55,983 nucleotides of DNA, from positions 16,757 to 72,739 of the forward strand of contig JAVKIA010000011.1 in assembly GCA_031459715.1 (NCBI GenBank). Direction: 5' to 3'. The notes below the pieces were generated by a model. That model did not search any database. It saw only the letters and a list, made by a program, of their open reading frames with translations, and was not told the DNA's origin. Positions 14,766-43,233 of this stretch are shown piece by piece. The position numbers and the translations under genes are program-made. The DNA is from Armatimonadota bacterium. GTDB taxonomy: Bacteria > Sysuimicrobiota > Sysuimicrobiia > Sysuimicrobiales > Humicultoraceae. Each line of letters starts with the position of its first letter. The stretch's first letter is position 1.

Positions 14766-14779
14766 CGTACATATGTTCG
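14766..14779. promoter_or_regulatory. LexA box 1 upstream of lexA
   Basis: CGTACATATGTTCG matches the CGAACRNRYGTTYG-type SOS box of Bacillota and Actinobacteria except for one base in the left arm. It lies upstream of the -35 hexamer of lexA, 20 bases from the second box. Confidence 0.75.
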
Positions 14780-14791
14780 CCCATTCTGAGC

Positions 14792-14820
14792 TTGCAAGCC
14801 GAACTTATGTTCGCTATAAA
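14792..14820 (+). promoter_or_regulatory. lexA promoter with embedded LexA box 2
   Basis: TTGCAA (14792-14797) and TATAAA (14815-14820) are 17 bases apart, an excellent sigma-70 promoter. The spacer contains a perfect palindromic SOS box, CGAACTTATGTTCG (14800-14813). LexA bound here would occlude polymerase, giving autorepression. The predicted transcript start falls at about 14827, almost on the first downstream ATG. Confidence 0.85.
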
Positions 14821-14839: not shown

Positions 14840-15466
14840 ATGGCCCGGCCACTCACCCCCCGGCAACGGCAGATCCTGGAGTGCCTGGCGGTCGCCATCC
14901 GCCGCTTCGGGATCGTCCCCTCGGTGCGTGAGATCGGGCAGGCCGTTGGGCTGCGTTCGCCGTCTACGGTGCACCAGCATCTGGATGCGCTGGAGCGCAA
15001 GGGCTACATCAAGCGTCACGGCGAACGTATGCGCGTGCTGCAGATCACTGAGCGCAGCGTCCTGCCGGACGGCGAGGAGGTCGTGTCGCTCCCTCTGGTC
15101 GGCAGGGTTTCGGCCGGCCTGCCCATCCTCGCCGAGGAACACGTCGAGGACATGATCCCCGTGCCCCGGCGCATGGTGGGCTGGCAGGACGAGTGCTTCC
15201 TTCTCACGGTGCGCGGCGACAGCATGGTCGGTGCGGGCATCATGCACGGGGATCTGGTGGTGGTGCGTTGCCAGCCTGCAGCGGAGCCCGGCGACATTGT
15301 GGTCGCCCTCTACGGGGAGGAGGCCACAGTCAAGCGTCTGCGCCTGGATAACGGCAGACCCGTGCTGGCACCGGAGAACCCGGCCTTCCCGGTCCTCCGT
15401 GGCGAGTTCGAGGTCATCGGCAAGGTCGTGGGGCTCTTGCGCAGCTACAGGCAGGTGCATGGATGA
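14840..15466 (+). CDS. lexA: LexA repressor
   Basis: LexA represses SOS genes and self-cleaves when RecA filaments form. The winged helix includes PSVREIGQAVGLRSPSTVHQHL. The cleavage site is Ala92-Gly93 in RVSAGLPI, with catalytic Ser128 (GDSMV) and Lys165 (TVKRL). ATG 14840 follows AAGGA with good spacing and matches family N-termini (RPLTPRQRQIL). ATG 14828 is an alternative and would make the mRNA nearly leaderless. Starts further upstream lie inside the operator and promoter. The gene is autoregulated by the two boxes. Confidence 0.95.
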   Translation: MARPLTPRQRQILECLAVAIRRFGIVPSVREIGQAVGLRSPSTVHQHLDALERKGYIKRHGERMRVLQITERSVLPDGEEVVSLPLVGRVSAGLPILAEEHVEDMIPVPRRMVGWQDECFLLTVRGDSMVGAGIMHGDLVVVRCQPAAEPGDIVVALYGEEATVKRLRLDNGRPVLAPENPAFPVLRGEFEVIGKVVGLLRSYRQVHG

Positions 15467-36720: not shown

Positions 36721-36794
36721 AGGGAACTCACAATGGGCCGTTCCAATTCGAAGGGGGATGTTGGATGGCTCGGAAGGACCGAGCAGTCAGGCCC

Positions 36795-36823
36795 TTGAAA
36801 GAATCAAACATTTGTTCGATAGT
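36795..36823 (+). promoter_or_regulatory. dnaB promoter with embedded LexA-like box
   Basis: TTGAAA (36795-36800) and GATAGT (36818-36823) are 17 bases apart. Spanning the spacer is CAAACATTTGTTCG (36805-36818), which retains the GTTCG half of the SOS box and an AAAC left arm, at the same position as the box in the lexA promoter. LexA binding would be weaker than at lexA. Confidence 0.5.
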
Positions 36824-36854
36824 AGAGGTGGCCAGAGGTCTTGGGAGGAAATCC

Positions 36855-39188
36855 ATGCGGGTCGTGCCGTTGGAGCGGGTTCCCCCGCAGAGCATCGAGG
36901 CCGAGCAGGGCGTCCTGGGCTCGATGCTGCTGGAGCGGGACGCCATCGCTCGGGTTGTGGAGATGCTCCGGGGCGAGGACTTCTACCGGGAAGCGCACCG
37001 CCGCATCTACGACGCTATGGTGGACCTGTTCGAGCGGGGAGAACCGGTGGATCTGATCACCGTGACCGACCGGTTGAAGGCGCGGGGCCAGCTGGAGGAT
37101 ATCGGCGGCGCGGCGTACGTCACCTCCCTGCTGGACGCCGTCCCCACGGCGGCCAATGTCGAGTACTACGCACGGCTGGTCCTCCAGAAGTCGCTTCTCA
37201 GGCAGTTGATAGCCGCGGGGACCGAGATCGTGGGCATGGGGTTCCGCGAAGAGCAGGATGTGGAAGTGCTCCTCGACCAGGCGGAGAAGCTGGTCTTTGG
37301 CATTGCCAGCCGGCGAATGACCCAGGATTTCCTGCCCATCCGGGAGGTGCTCCAGGAGTCCTTTGACCGCATCGACCGCCGCTACCAGGACAAGGGCACC
37401 GTCACCGGGGTGCCCACCGGGTTCGTCGATCTGGACCGCCTGACCGCCGGGCTGCAGCCCGCCGACCTGATCATCGTGGCCGCCCGGCCGGCTATGGGCA
37501 AGTGCCTCAAGTACGACACCGAGATCGTTGACGCCCAGACGGGTGCCGTCCGCACGATCCAGGAGGTCGTGGGGGCGCGCCAGGCCTCCCTTTTCACCCT
37601 CGACGACTCCATGAGACTGTCTCCCACCGCCCCCAGCCACTTCGTGGACGACGGGATCAGGCCGGTCTTCCGCGTGCGGCTGGCCAGCGGGCGGGAGGTG
37701 GAAACCACGCTCTCCCACCCCTTTTTGACCCCGCACGGTTGGTGCGCCCTCCACGACCTCTCCCCCGGCGCCCTGGTGGCCGTGCCCCGGCGCCTTCCCG
37801 TGTTCGGCGCGCTGGACCTGCCGGCGCACGAGGTGCGGCTGCTCGCCTACCTCACCAGCGGCCGCCTGCCCGCCTCCCCTCTCCTGGCCGCGGATTTCGC
37901 CGACGCCGTGGCTGTGGCGGACGCCATCCGCCTGGGCCGGCAGGCGGAGCGTGCCCGGCCAGCCGGCACGGTCATCTCCGGGGGCTCCCCGGTGGCGGAG
38001 GCGGTGGACGTCCTGCGGGCGCGCTACCGAGGGCTGGACGGGCCGTCCGCCACACGCTTCATCCCCGCAGAGGTGGCCACCCTGCGGCGGGAGAAGCTCG
38101 CCCTCTTCCTGAACCGCTTGCTTGCGGCCTGCGGCCAGATCGGCGGAGAGGGTGAGCACCTGACGCTGGAAGCCGAGATGCCCTCCCCCCGTGTGGCCCG
38201 CCAGGTGCAGCACCTGCTGCTGCGCTTCGGAGTGCCCTCCGTGATCGCGGGAACTTCCCTGCGCGTCGGACCGGCGGGAATGGTCCCGCTGATCCGGGAG
38301 GTGGGCGTCTTGGGGTGGGAGCGGCTGCGCCGCTGGGCGCGGAACCAGCAGCGCTCCCTCCTGCAGGAGGTGGACGTGATGTGGGATACCGTGGTCGCCG
38401 TGGAGGAGGCCGGCGCCTTCCAGGTGTATGACCTCACCGTGCCGCGGACGCACAACTTCATCGCCAACGACGTCTGCGTGCACAACACCACGTTCTGCCT
38501 GAACATCGCGCAGCACGCCGCGCTGCAGCAGAAGACGCCGGTGGCCATCTTCAGCCTGGAGACCAGCAGCGAGCAGGTGGTGCAGCGGATGCTGGCCGCG
38601 GAGGCAGAGGTGGACGGGTCGAGGCTGCGCACCGGGTTCCTCTCCGACAGCGACTGGCCCAGGCTGGCCCACGCCATGGCCCGCCTCTCCGAGGCGCCCA
38701 TCTTCATTGACGACAGCGCCGCCATCAACGTCATCGAGATGCGGGCCAAGGCCCGCAAGCTGAAGGCGGAGCAGGGGCTGGGGCTGATCATCATCGACTA
38801 TCTGCAGATGATCCAGTCTTACAAGCGGACGGAGAACCGCACCCAGGAGATCTCGGAGATCGCCCGGGCGACCAAGTCTCTGGCCAAGGAGCTGGACGTC
38901 CCGGTGATCGCCATCTCGCAGCTCTCCAGGGCGGTGGAGGCGTTGGGGAACCGGAGGCCGCAGTTGTCTCACCTCAGAGAGAGTGGCGAGCTGGAGCAGG
39001 TGGCCGACCTGGTGCTTTTTATCTACCGGGAAGACTACTACAACGAGAACACCGAGAAGAAGAACATTGCCGAGATCATCCTTTCCAAGCACCGAAACGG
39101 TCCCACCGGGACGGTGGAGCTGTACTTCGACAAGGAGCACAGCCGGTTCGTCGGGCTGGACCGGCGCCGCGGCGGGGCGGGGCGCTAG
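36855..39188 (+). CDS. dnaB: Replicative DNA helicase DnaB, intein-containing precursor
   Basis: The 777-aa precursor comprises a DnaB N-domain (PPQSIEAEQGVLGSMLL ... EDFYREAHRRIYDAM), the RecA-like helicase core, and an intein at residues 217-544. After splicing the exteins give a 449-aa helicase with a restored Walker A, RPAMGK-TTFCLNIA. Later motifs are IIIDYLQMIQSYKRTENRTQEISEI and LSQL-type SQLSRAVEALGNRRPQLSHLRESG. ATG 36855 follows GGGAGGAAATCC. Upstream starts would lie within the promoter and LexA-like site. It unwinds DNA at the fork. Without splicing the P-loop is broken, so splicing is essential. Confidence 0.97.
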   Translation: MRVVPLERVPPQSIEAEQGVLGSMLLERDAIARVVEMLRGEDFYREAHRRIYDAMVDLFERGEPVDLITVTDRLKARGQLEDIGGAAYVTSLLDAVPTAANVEYYARLVLQKSLLRQLIAAGTEIVGMGFREEQDVEVLLDQAEKLVFGIASRRMTQDFLPIREVLQESFDRIDRRYQDKGTVTGVPTGFVDLDRLTAGLQPADLIIVAARPAMGKCLKYDTEIVDAQTGAVRTIQEVVGARQASLFTLDDSMRLSPTAPSHFVDDGIRPVFRVRLASGREVETTLSHPFLTPHGWCALHDLSPGALVAVPRRLPVFGALDLPAHEVRLLAYLTSGRLPASPLLAADFADAVAVADAIRLGRQAERARPAGTVISGGSPVAEAVDVLRARYRGLDGPSATRFIPAEVATLRREKLALFLNRLLAACGQIGGEGEHLTLEAEMPSPRVARQVQHLLLRFGVPSVIAGTSLRVGPAGMVPLIREVGVLGWERLRRWARNQQRSLLQEVDVMWDTVVAVEEAGAFQVYDLTVPRTHNFIANDVCVHNTTFCLNIAQHAALQQKTPVAIFSLETSSEQVVQRMLAAEAEVDGSRLRTGFLSDSDWPRLAHAMARLSEAPIFIDDSAAINVIEMRAKARKLKAEQGLGLIIIDYLQMIQSYKRTENRTQEISEIARATKSLAKELDVPVIAISQLSRAVEALGNRRPQLSHLRESGELEQVADLVLFIYREDYYNENTEKKNIAEIILSKHRNGPTGTVELYFDKEHSRFVGLDRRRGGAGR
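37503..38486 (+). mobile_element. DnaB intein with degenerate LAGLIDADG endonuclease
   Basis: This 328-codon in-frame insertion lies between Gly-Lys and Thr of the DnaB Walker A. Splicing landmarks are Cys1 (CLKYDTEIVD), block B VETTLSHPFLTPHGW, block F VYDLTVPRTHNFIAND and block G VCVHN followed by Thr+1. Between them (about residues 110-270) are relics of two LAGLIDADG helices: VRLLAYLTSGRL and LALFLNRLLAACGQI. Both lack the catalytic acidic residue. The element should splice but not home. The insertion point is a known intein site in DnaB proteins. Confidence 0.92.
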
Positions 39189-40666: not shown

Positions 40667-42211
40667 ATGCCGCAAATCCCTGAAGCCATAGAGCAGCTCA
40701 GGGCGCACCTGGCGCCCATCGTCGACCTGCGCCACGCCGCCGGGGTTCTGGGCTGGGACCAGCAGACCCACATGCCTCCCGGCGGTGGGAGGGCGCGGGC
40801 GGAGCAGCTGGCCACCCTCAGCCGGCTCATCCACGAGATGTTCACCTCCCGGCGCACGGGGGAGCTGCTGGAGGCGGCGGAGCGGGCAGCGGAGCAGCTC
40901 GATCCCGACTCCGACGAGGCGGCACTGGTACGCGTGACGCGGCGCGACTATGACCGGGCGACGAAGCTCCCCTCCGAGTTTGTCGCCGCCCGCAGCCGCG
41001 CCTCCAGCCTGAGCATTGAGGCGTGGCGGCAGGCCCGTCCGGCCAACGACTTCGCCGCCTTCTGTCCGCACCTGCAGCAGATGGTGGACTACGCCCGCCG
41101 CACTGCCGACTACCTGGGATATGCCCAGCACCCCTATGACGCGCTGCTGGACCTCTACGAGCCGTTGATGACCTCGCGGGAGGTGACCGAGCTGTTCGCC
41201 AGACTGCGGGAGGGGATCGTACCGCTCGTGCGCGCCATCGCTGCGGCGCCGCAGGTGGATGACAGCGTTCTGCACCAGGAATACGACGAGGCGAAGCAAC
41301 AGAGCTTCGCTCTGGAGGTGGTCCAGGCCTTCGGCTACGACATCTCCCGCGGCCGCCTCGACCGGGCGCCGCACCCCTTTGCCGCCAGCTTCAGCCGTGA
41401 CGATGCCCGCATCACCACCCGGTTCGACCGTCGCTTTTTCAACCCGGCGGTCTTCGCCATCTTCCACGAGGCGGGCCACGCTATGTACCACCAGGGGATG
41501 GCTCCCTCCCTGGAGCGGACCCCGCTTGCCGGTGGCGCCAGCCTGGGCGTCCACGAGTCCCAGTCGCGGATGTGGGAGAACCTGGTCGGGCGCAGCCGGC
41601 CGTTTTGGCAGCACTACTTCCCCCGACTGCGAGAGCTCTTCCCGGAGCAGCTCACGGGGGTAGACGCGGAGGGATTCTACCGGGCGGTAAACAAGGTGCA
41701 GCCGAGTTTGATTCGGGTAGAGGCCGACGAGGTTACCTACAACCTGCACATCATCCTGCGCTTCGAGCTGGAGAAGGCCCTGGTGGAGGGGTCGCTCAGG
41801 GTGGAGGACGCCCCGGGGGCCTGGAACGCCAGGATGGCCGAATACCTGGGGGTGACGCCCCCCAGCGACGCCGACGGCCTGATGCAGGACATCCACTGGG
41901 CCAGCGGCTCCATCGGCTACTTCCCCACCTACACGCTGGGGAACGTGATGGCAGCCCAGCTCTTCGCTGCGGCCCTGCGGGAGCATCCCGCGCTCCCAGA
42001 GGATTTCGCCCGGGGGGAGTTCCGGGTGCTGCTTGAGTGGCTGCGGAAGCACGTCCACCGGCACGGGCGGAAGTTTTTCCCACAGGACCTCCTGCAGCGC
42101 GCCACAGGCAGCCGCCTCACCCCTGAGCCGTACCTGCGATACCTGTGGGTCAAATTTGGCGAGATCTACGGGATCAGCGCACCGGAAACGGCTGGTCTAA
42201 GTTTCCCTTGA
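40667..42211 (+). CDS. Thermostable carboxypeptidase, M32 family
   Basis: 514 aa, with the zinc motif HEAGH at residues 267-271 (IFHEAGHAMYHQGM), the second-shell motif HESQSRMWENLVGRSRPFW, and the N-terminal GVLGWDQQTHMPPGG typical of Taq/Pfu carboxypeptidases. It removes C-terminal residues from peptides in the cytoplasm using a metal. The ATG follows GAGAGGAGG. It lies 29 bases after the glycosidase gene. Confidence 0.95.
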   Translation: MPQIPEAIEQLRAHLAPIVDLRHAAGVLGWDQQTHMPPGGGRARAEQLATLSRLIHEMFTSRRTGELLEAAERAAEQLDPDSDEAALVRVTRRDYDRATKLPSEFVAARSRASSLSIEAWRQARPANDFAAFCPHLQQMVDYARRTADYLGYAQHPYDALLDLYEPLMTSREVTELFARLREGIVPLVRAIAAAPQVDDSVLHQEYDEAKQQSFALEVVQAFGYDISRGRLDRAPHPFAASFSRDDARITTRFDRRFFNPAVFAIFHEAGHAMYHQGMAPSLERTPLAGGASLGVHESQSRMWENLVGRSRPFWQHYFPRLRELFPEQLTGVDAEGFYRAVNKVQPSLIRVEADEVTYNLHIILRFELEKALVEGSLRVEDAPGAWNARMAEYLGVTPPSDADGLMQDIHWASGSIGYFPTYTLGNVMAAQLFAAALREHPALPEDFARGEFRVLLEWLRKHVHRHGRKFFPQDLLQRATGSRLTPEPYLRYLWVKFGEIYGISAPETAGLSFP

Positions 42212-42234
42212 CGCGAACGTATGTTCGATACTAG
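42208..42234 (+). promoter_or_regulatory. SOS box overlapping promoter of a radical SAM gene
   Basis: CGAACGTATGTTCG (42214-42227) is a perfect palindromic LexA box identical in its arms to the one in the lexA promoter. It directly abuts TTGACG (42208-42213). A possible -10, TACTAG (42229-42234), is only 15 bases away, so that element is uncertain. The arrangement predicts LexA repression and induction by DNA damage. Confidence 0.8.
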
Positions 42235-42336
42235 GATCGACCCGGGATGGTAGTTTCAGCTCAGTCATCAGGGATGCTGACCCGGGGGGCTCCCGATCAG
42301 GGACACCTGGTTCCCTGGTCATTTTGGACGACAGGC

Positions 42337-43233
42337 ATGCGCTCCACGGCACGGGTCCAGTGGGTGGAGGTCCAGGTCAAGTCGGTCCTTAATCGGGTCC
42401 GTGGGATGCCCTTCCGGTGGTCGATTAACCCGTATAGGGGATGCGCTCACGCCTGCGTGTACTGCTACGCCCGGCTCACGCACTGGTTCCTGGACCAGGA
42501 CGGGATCCGCGACTGGTCCTCCCGAATCTTCGTCAAGGTAAACGCGCCGGAGGTGCTGCGCCGGGAGCTCACCCGACCCACCTGGCGCCGGGAGCAGGTG
42601 CACATCGGCACGGCCACTGACCCCTACCAGCCAGCGGAGGGTACCTACCGCATCACCCGCCGGGTCCTGGAGGTGTTGAGTAACGCCGACACGCCGGTCG
42701 CCCTGGTCACCAAATCTACCATGGTCGTCCGTGACCGGGACGTCCTGGGGAAGCTGGCCCGGGGACCCGGGGCCCTGGTCATGTTCAGCCTGACCACGGT
42801 GGACCCGGCCCTCGCCCGGGAGATTGAGCCCGACGTCCCCCCGCCGCAGCGACGTCTAGAGGCCATGTGCATGCTGGCAGAGGCAGGGGTGGCCACGGGC
42901 GTCTTCCTGGCTCCTGTGCTCCCGGGGATCACCGACGGGGAGGAGCAGCTGGCTGCGGTGGTGGAGGCGGCCAGGGCCTACGGGGCCTCCGCCCTCTTCA
43001 CAAATACCCTCCACCTGGGCCAGGTCACACGGGAGGCGTTCTTTTCCTACCTGGAGCACAAGCGACCCGCCCTCGTGCCGGAGTACGAGCGTCTCTACCG
43101 GGGCAAGTATGCGCCCCGGGCCACGCAGCAGCGGATCCAGCAGGTTGTTGCCGCCCTCAAGGCGCGCGCGGGCTTTGCGGGCCCGCCGGTGAGACCAGCT
43201 CCTGTCCCTTCCGCCCAGCTCCGGTTGCTTTAG
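42337..43233 (+). CDS. SplB-like radical SAM protein, probable DNA-repair enzyme
   Basis: About 298 aa. The radical SAM motif Cx3Cx2C is in PYRGCAHACVYCYAR. Upstream EVQVKSVLNRV and later QVHIGTATDPYQPAEG and LVTKSTMVVRDRDVL match the SplB/Rv2578c-like group annotated as DNA photolyase-type radical SAM proteins. A perfect LexA box in front of the gene supports a repair or damage role, but the lesion is unknown and spore photoproduct lyase activity cannot be assumed. The frame stays open to an ATG at 42247; the later ATG was chosen from typical N-termini and is uncertain. Confidence 0.85.
   Translation: MRSTARVQWVEVQVKSVLNRVRGMPFRWSINPYRGCAHACVYCYARLTHWFLDQDGIRDWSSRIFVKVNAPEVLRRELTRPTWRREQVHIGTATDPYQPAEGTYRITRRVLEVLSNADTPVALVTKSTMVVRDRDVLGKLARGPGALVMFSLTTVDPALAREIEPDVPPPQRRLEAMCMLAEAGVATGVFLAPVLPGITDGEEQLAAVVEAARAYGASALFTNTLHLGQVTREAFFSYLEHKRPALVPEYERLYRGKYAPRATQQRIQQVVAALKARAGFAGPPVRPAPVPSAQLRLL

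Follow-up and report, generated by a model that had tools for sequence, protein, structure and literature searches.

A predicted SOS-controlled, SplB-like radical SAM gene with a candidate clamp-binding C-terminus in a bacterium of the order Sysuimicrobiales

The window analysed here, that is, the whole DNA stretch of 55,983 nucleotides, contains a radical SAM gene preceded by a promoter with an embedded LexA-type palindrome, and a lexA gene with boxes of its own. The relevant features are as follows.

14766–14779, no strand assigned: upstream LexA box of lexA, CGTACATATGTTCG, matching 9 of 10 positions
14800–14813, no strand assigned: LexA box of lexA, CGAACTTATGTTCG, matching 10 of 10 positions
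14840–15463, plus strand: lexA (LexA DNA-binding domain and S24 peptidase; HTH and S24 domains found)
42208–42213, plus strand: −35 element TTGACG, overlapping the stop codon of the carboxypeptidase ORF that precedes it; similar elements in 20 orthologous promoters
42214–42227, no strand assigned: LexA (SOS) box CGAACGTATGTTCG, in the spacer between the −35 and −10 elements
42232–42237, plus strand: −10-like element TAGGAT, 18 bp from the −35 element; orthologues have TATAAT-like elements in this position
42247–43233, plus strand: radical SAM gene of the Rv2578c/PA0069 branch of COG1533, 328 amino acids from the ATG at 42247; alternative ATG at 42337
42424–42471, plus strand: CxxxCxxC cluster-binding motif NPYRGCAHACVYCYAR; intein site in several orthologues
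42607–42627, plus strand: GTATDPY, the first Thr of which (42610–42612) occupies the position of the hydrogen-donor cysteine of spore photoproduct lyase (SPL; Cys140 in Gt, Cys141 in Bs)
43216–43230, plus strand: QLRLL at the C-terminus, a candidate clamp-binding pentapeptide of the QL(S/D)LF type; Q-x-x-L-[F/L] family-wide

The upstream ORF (40667–42211), whose translation reads as an M32-type carboxypeptidase, ends with its stop codon (42209–42211) inside the −35 element, and an ORF that appears from its translation to be citrate synthase-like begins about 130 bp 3′ of the radical SAM gene. This layout indicates that the gene is monocistronic and has its own promoter. The ATG at 42247, located just past this promoter, fits the nearest orthologues better than that at 42337, the start implied by the end (42336) of the region named in a preliminary description of the locus. 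This preliminary description had reported a lone radical SAM gene with a perfect LexA palindrome abutting its −35 element, and both statements were confirmed: the gene stands alone by its layout, and CGAACGTATGTTCG lies immediately 3′ of TTGACG and ahead of TAGGAT, matching all ten specified positions of the palindrome, while its inner four bases, GTAT, are not palindromic themselves. Two perfect boxes were found in the window against about 0.06 expected from base composition, the second being that of the lexA promoter. Across the 2.76 Mb genome, 11 perfect boxes stood against an expectation of about 2.8, a count that is unconvincing alone, and the box is persuasive because of its promoter position and its conservation. 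When one mismatch was allowed, the genome gave 66 boxes versus 65 for a reversed control pattern, and this count was discarded as evidence.

Conservation was examined in two sets of relatives. The preliminary description took orthologues without LexA boxes as the observation that would speak against it; upstream DNA could be read for 23 orthologues of the same order (the window gene counted in), of which 19 carry a perfect box and two others an imperfect one (L017, 9/10; L018, 8/10), and no box precedes the remaining two (L008 and L013), in the former of which an ORF ends just 5′ of the start. All 20 orthologous promoters inspected show the arrangement TTGACn-box-TATNNT. The more distant set came from a contig scan that yielded 80 homologues, mostly from Actinomycetota and Chloroflexota, 78 of which could be scored for the 200 nt upstream. 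The perfect core GAACN4GTTC was present in 51 of these 78 (46 of 62 in Actinomycetota, 3 of 9 in Chloroflexota, and 1 of 1 in Eremiobacterota), compared with 3 of 2353 control windows taken from those loci, although these box and motif counts are not independent events, as the homologues are phylogenetically related. A box of this type was not found at the homologues from several other phyla (L030–L034, Acidobacteria MAGs). Proteobacterial homologues located on large replicons have the LexA motif of their own class: all five alphaproteobacterial homologues examined are preceded by the alpha-type LexA site GTTCN7GTTC, and the Aeromonas homologue has CTGTATATATAAACAG upstream. One gene family thus bears three different LexA motifs.

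In the window, the lexA promoter and the −35/−10 spacer of the radical SAM gene share the same type of operator. Elsewhere in the genome, a perfect box, TTGACTATACGAACGCATGTTCGTATACT, lies in a promoter-like setting ahead of a gene of the DNA polymerase III alpha type (contig C56; PHP and NTPase domains), which is probably dnaE2, another overlaps the start codon region of the dnaG primase gene (G000:C30:6237-6250, L046), and a third, within a consensus promoter, precedes a small ORF that has no Pfam match (G000:C16:31745-31758, L045). The conserved box, the lexA gene with the same box and the host's own SOS regulon argue for the LexA/SOS control that had been proposed for the radical SAM gene; judged from these sequence features, such control is conserved and well supported, with LexA expected to bind the box and DNA damage to induce the gene.

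Several other observations were made on the regulon. The ORF that follows the small ORF on C16 resembles a B-family DNA polymerase by eye, and its available piece has no Pfam match. A second complete LexA-like gene (HTH and S24 domains; G000:C5:31281, L035) has a near-box, CGAACAGATGTTTG, upstream. In the window, a 9/10 box, CAAACATTTGTTCG, lies at 36805–36818, just ahead of the probable true start of dnaB, whose ORF (36765–39188) includes an apparent in-frame intein.

The protein matches the Radical_SAM profile PF04055 with 58.9 bits (cut-off 29.5), and the three cluster cysteines are invariant in the alignment of 20 homologues (A1). The best-scoring family was Rv2578c (NF038135), with 299.6 bits over 276 residues and an equivalog cut-off of 430, followed by PA0069 (NF033668), with 242.7 bits and a cut-off of 360, while the model of true SPL (TIGR04070) gave only 16.1 bits against a cut-off of 400. 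The designation "SplB/Rv2578c type" therefore holds at the level of the superfamily and does not extend to true SPL, and the NF038135 score makes the protein a member of a sister lineage inside this superfamily rather than an Rv2578c equivalog. Apparent inteins were seen at the third cluster cysteine in six same-order orthologues (L010, L014, L024, L026, L028, and L029), a site that parallels the NCBIfam model "intein-containing Rv2578c".

Partners of the bacterial sliding clamp carry a C-terminal QL(S/D)LF motif (PMC9690074), and the window protein ends in QLRLL. The relatives end in QLTLL, QLSLF, QQLALF, QPTLF, QYSLF, and similar peptides, and in A1 Q300 is nearly invariant and L303 invariant, behind a tail that varies in length and sequence. 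QxxL[FLIMVW] occurs within the last 12 residues of 57 of the 80 homologues, compared with 1 of 265 neighbouring ORFs and 0.6% of shuffled tails. This clamp-type motif spans the order of the window, Actinomycetota and Proteobacteria; the tails of Chloroflexota deviate (QLALT, QLSLS). The pattern suggests that the C-terminal tag probably clips the enzyme to the replication clamp. It could be argued that the pentapeptide is a fold element or a chance low-complexity feature of an enzyme that is SOS-induced and not recruited to the clamp, as the motif comprises no more than five residues, the terminal Phe is missing from QLRLL, and the AlphaFold2 model places a short helix at the C-terminus. We regard this as unlikely, because the motif agrees with the canonical one and is conserved in distant phyla at the excess given above, behind a variable tail that was modelled with low confidence (pLDDT 56–58). 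No report of a clamp-type C-terminus in the SplB-like family was found in the freely accessible literature searched, so that we consider this tail provisionally as new to the literature.

An archaeal PCNA-interacting (PIP) motif at the same place was considered and rejected: one protein (L153) ends in QLTIEHWLKKEGKGDK, but two other close Asgard homologues, L156 and L157, have no such motif, and the bacterial clamp motif is absent from the closest Asgard homologues. Another Asgard COG1533-like subfamily (L167, L174, L178, L179, and L184) has conserved TG[IM]DKFL-like ends that resemble PIP motifs and could be a parallel clamp tag.

Structural comparison was carried out with the AlphaFold2 model obtained from A1 (mean pLDDT 87.4, pTM 0.86). 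In a fold search of the PDB with this model, ranks 1–6 were all SPL, and all other radical SAM enzymes scored lower, among them pyruvate formate-lyase (PFL)-activating enzyme, lipoyl synthase, MiaB, and RlmN. A single-sequence search of the PDB with the window protein gave no meaningful match, and a profile search matched SPL weakly. Alignment with a true SPL (L133) by hhalign reached a probability of 86% and paired AACTSDP of SPL with IGTATDP, by which Thr takes the place of the hydrogen-donor cysteine. This cysteine (Cys141 in Bs, Cys140 in Gt) is the H donor of SPL, and its loss inactivates the enzyme in vivo (PMC3742179). None of the 61 parsed homologues has Cys at this position. In many actinobacterial members, a Cys lies four residues C-terminal to it (GTNVDCYQ); the window protein (GTATDPYQ) has none there. 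The Tyr97/Tyr99 pair of SPL is Tyr/Tyr in the window protein and Phe/Phe in 4 of the 61 homologues.

These data bear on the idea that the enzyme is a genuine lyase of the SPL mechanism, mending 5-thyminyl-5,6-dihydrothymine in dry or UV-exposed cells that do not sporulate. The best structural neighbour and the weak profile match favour it, and earlier authors interpreted the SOS-controlled splB as photoproduct repair (PMC3323433). Nevertheless, the missing cysteine counts against plain SPL chemistry, and with the Phe/Phe pair of some members and the negligible TIGR04070 score it makes such a lyase quite improbable; canonical SPL identity was rejected on the cysteine. It is therefore suggested that reading the gene as an "SOS-regulated spore photoproduct lyase" or as photoreactivation is wrong in chemistry. 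SpoIVA and Spo0A had no match in the host genome, which is 97% complete, and the host accordingly appears to be non-sporulating, as the preliminary description had supposed; true SPL had no match in it either.

The possibility that the SOS-induced enzyme modifies protein or RNA, such as a replication protein reached via the clamp or a tRNA, and not DNA, has also been weighed. Radical SAM enzymes with a similar core (PFL-activating enzyme, lipoyl synthase, MiaB, and RlmN) act in this way, but their fold matches are clearly below those of SPL, and a clamp motif combined with SOS control across several phyla suits DNA better, so we give this option little credence. That the gene belongs to anti-phage defence or a mobile element and uses SOS merely as an alarm is highly improbable: radical SAM "mobile pair" relatives do occur on Bacteroides plasmids and homologues are encoded in viral records, but no PADLOC model matched, gene and box are conserved through the order, and the one mobile-pair-B example examined (L152) has neither the C-terminal motif nor any of the LexA site types tested.

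Taken together, the non-SPL catalytic residue and the clamp-type tail point to an SOS-induced, clamp-tethered radical SAM enzyme that would act on DNA lesions at replication sites, a reading to which, resting as it does on sequence and a predicted structure, we assign a probability of roughly two in three; it presumes LexA binding, induction, clamp binding, and a DNA substrate. In the undamaged cell, LexA bound between the −35 and −10 elements would block RNA polymerase. Upon damage, RecA-driven self-cleavage of LexA would turn on the radical SAM gene together with lexA and the probable error-prone polymerase gene. The pentapeptide of the disordered tail would then bring the SPL-like enzyme to DnaN clamps on DNA that has just been replicated or contains gaps, where the 5′-deoxyadenosyl radical generated from the [4Fe-4S] cluster and SAM would most likely reverse or process a base lesion directly. 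The substrate is probably something other than the spore photoproduct alone. Regulation, the SPL-like fold, and the clamp-type C-terminus make a DNA role of the enzyme probable, and it may well be the repair enzyme proposed in the preliminary description, plain SPL chemistry being the less likely mechanism. The clamp motif turns this into a concrete hypothesis of workplace, namely the DnaN clamp, beside the translesion polymerases, and the convergence of three LexA motifs on one family indicates that these genes have come repeatedly under SOS control. More tentatively, with odds a little short of even, the Rv2578c/PA0069 enzymes may form a widespread branch of direct reversal, in which, in bacteria that do not sporulate at all, SOS-induced and clamp-tethered proteins would apply SPL-like chemistry without the SPL cysteine to a lesion other than the spore photoproduct.

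An SOS-run SplB-type enzyme in a non-sporulator was originally presented as a novelty; this does not hold, as such enzymes have been in print since 2012 (PMC3323433, PMC7739468, PMC8565304). The first of these papers predicted that splB of alpha- and beta-Proteobacteria is under SOS control, and the second names a radical SAM protein both for Balneolaeota and for the core SOS regulon of Gram-positive bacteria. SplB (COG1533) was listed for Bacteroidetes and said to be SOS regulated in several species (PMC8565304), and SplB-like enzymes have been described in SOS-linked operons (PMC3765255). The LexA regulon of S. venezuelae includes the radical SAM protein vnz_31145, for which no family is stated (PMC9380542). 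Consequently, the regulation was largely anticipated, and the additions of this work are one further uncultured lineage, the non-SPL catalytic residue, and the conserved clamp-type tail.

Among the known systems, SPL (TIGR04070; PDB 4FHC-4FHG, 4K9R, and 4RH0) is the closest PDB fold, with a TM-score of about 0.67–0.68 by query length and a common CxxxCxxC motif. The window protein differs from it in sharing only about 15% identity, in having no equivalent of Cys140/141, in its LexA control, and in a host in which the sporulation genes searched for had no match. Radical SAM mobile pair protein B (TIGR04470) has a related core (131 bits) but forms a plasmid-borne pair in Bacteroides. Distant radical SAM homologues were also seen in Acidianus/Sulfolobus bicaudaviruses and in the gut virus Dulem virus 36 (H45–H48 and H50). 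The PA0069 family shares the homologous core, LexA sites upstream of the alpha- and gammaproteobacterial copies examined, and QLSLL, QYSLF, or QLRLF ends, whereas its LexA motif is different and the window protein scores below its cut-off; we infer that the splB of PMC3323433 belongs to this family. The Rv2578c family of Actinomycetota likewise has LexA-type boxes upstream, a C-terminal clamp-like motif and, in some orthologues, inteins at the cluster cysteine motif, but the window protein remains under its equivalog cut-off and has GTATDPYQ where many actinobacterial members have GTNVDCYQ. Both the radical SAM protein that PMC7739468 lists for the Gram-positive core regulon and vnz_31145 (PMC9380542) resemble the gene described here in being SOS-regulated radical SAM genes, and the former is likely equivalent to Rv2578c.
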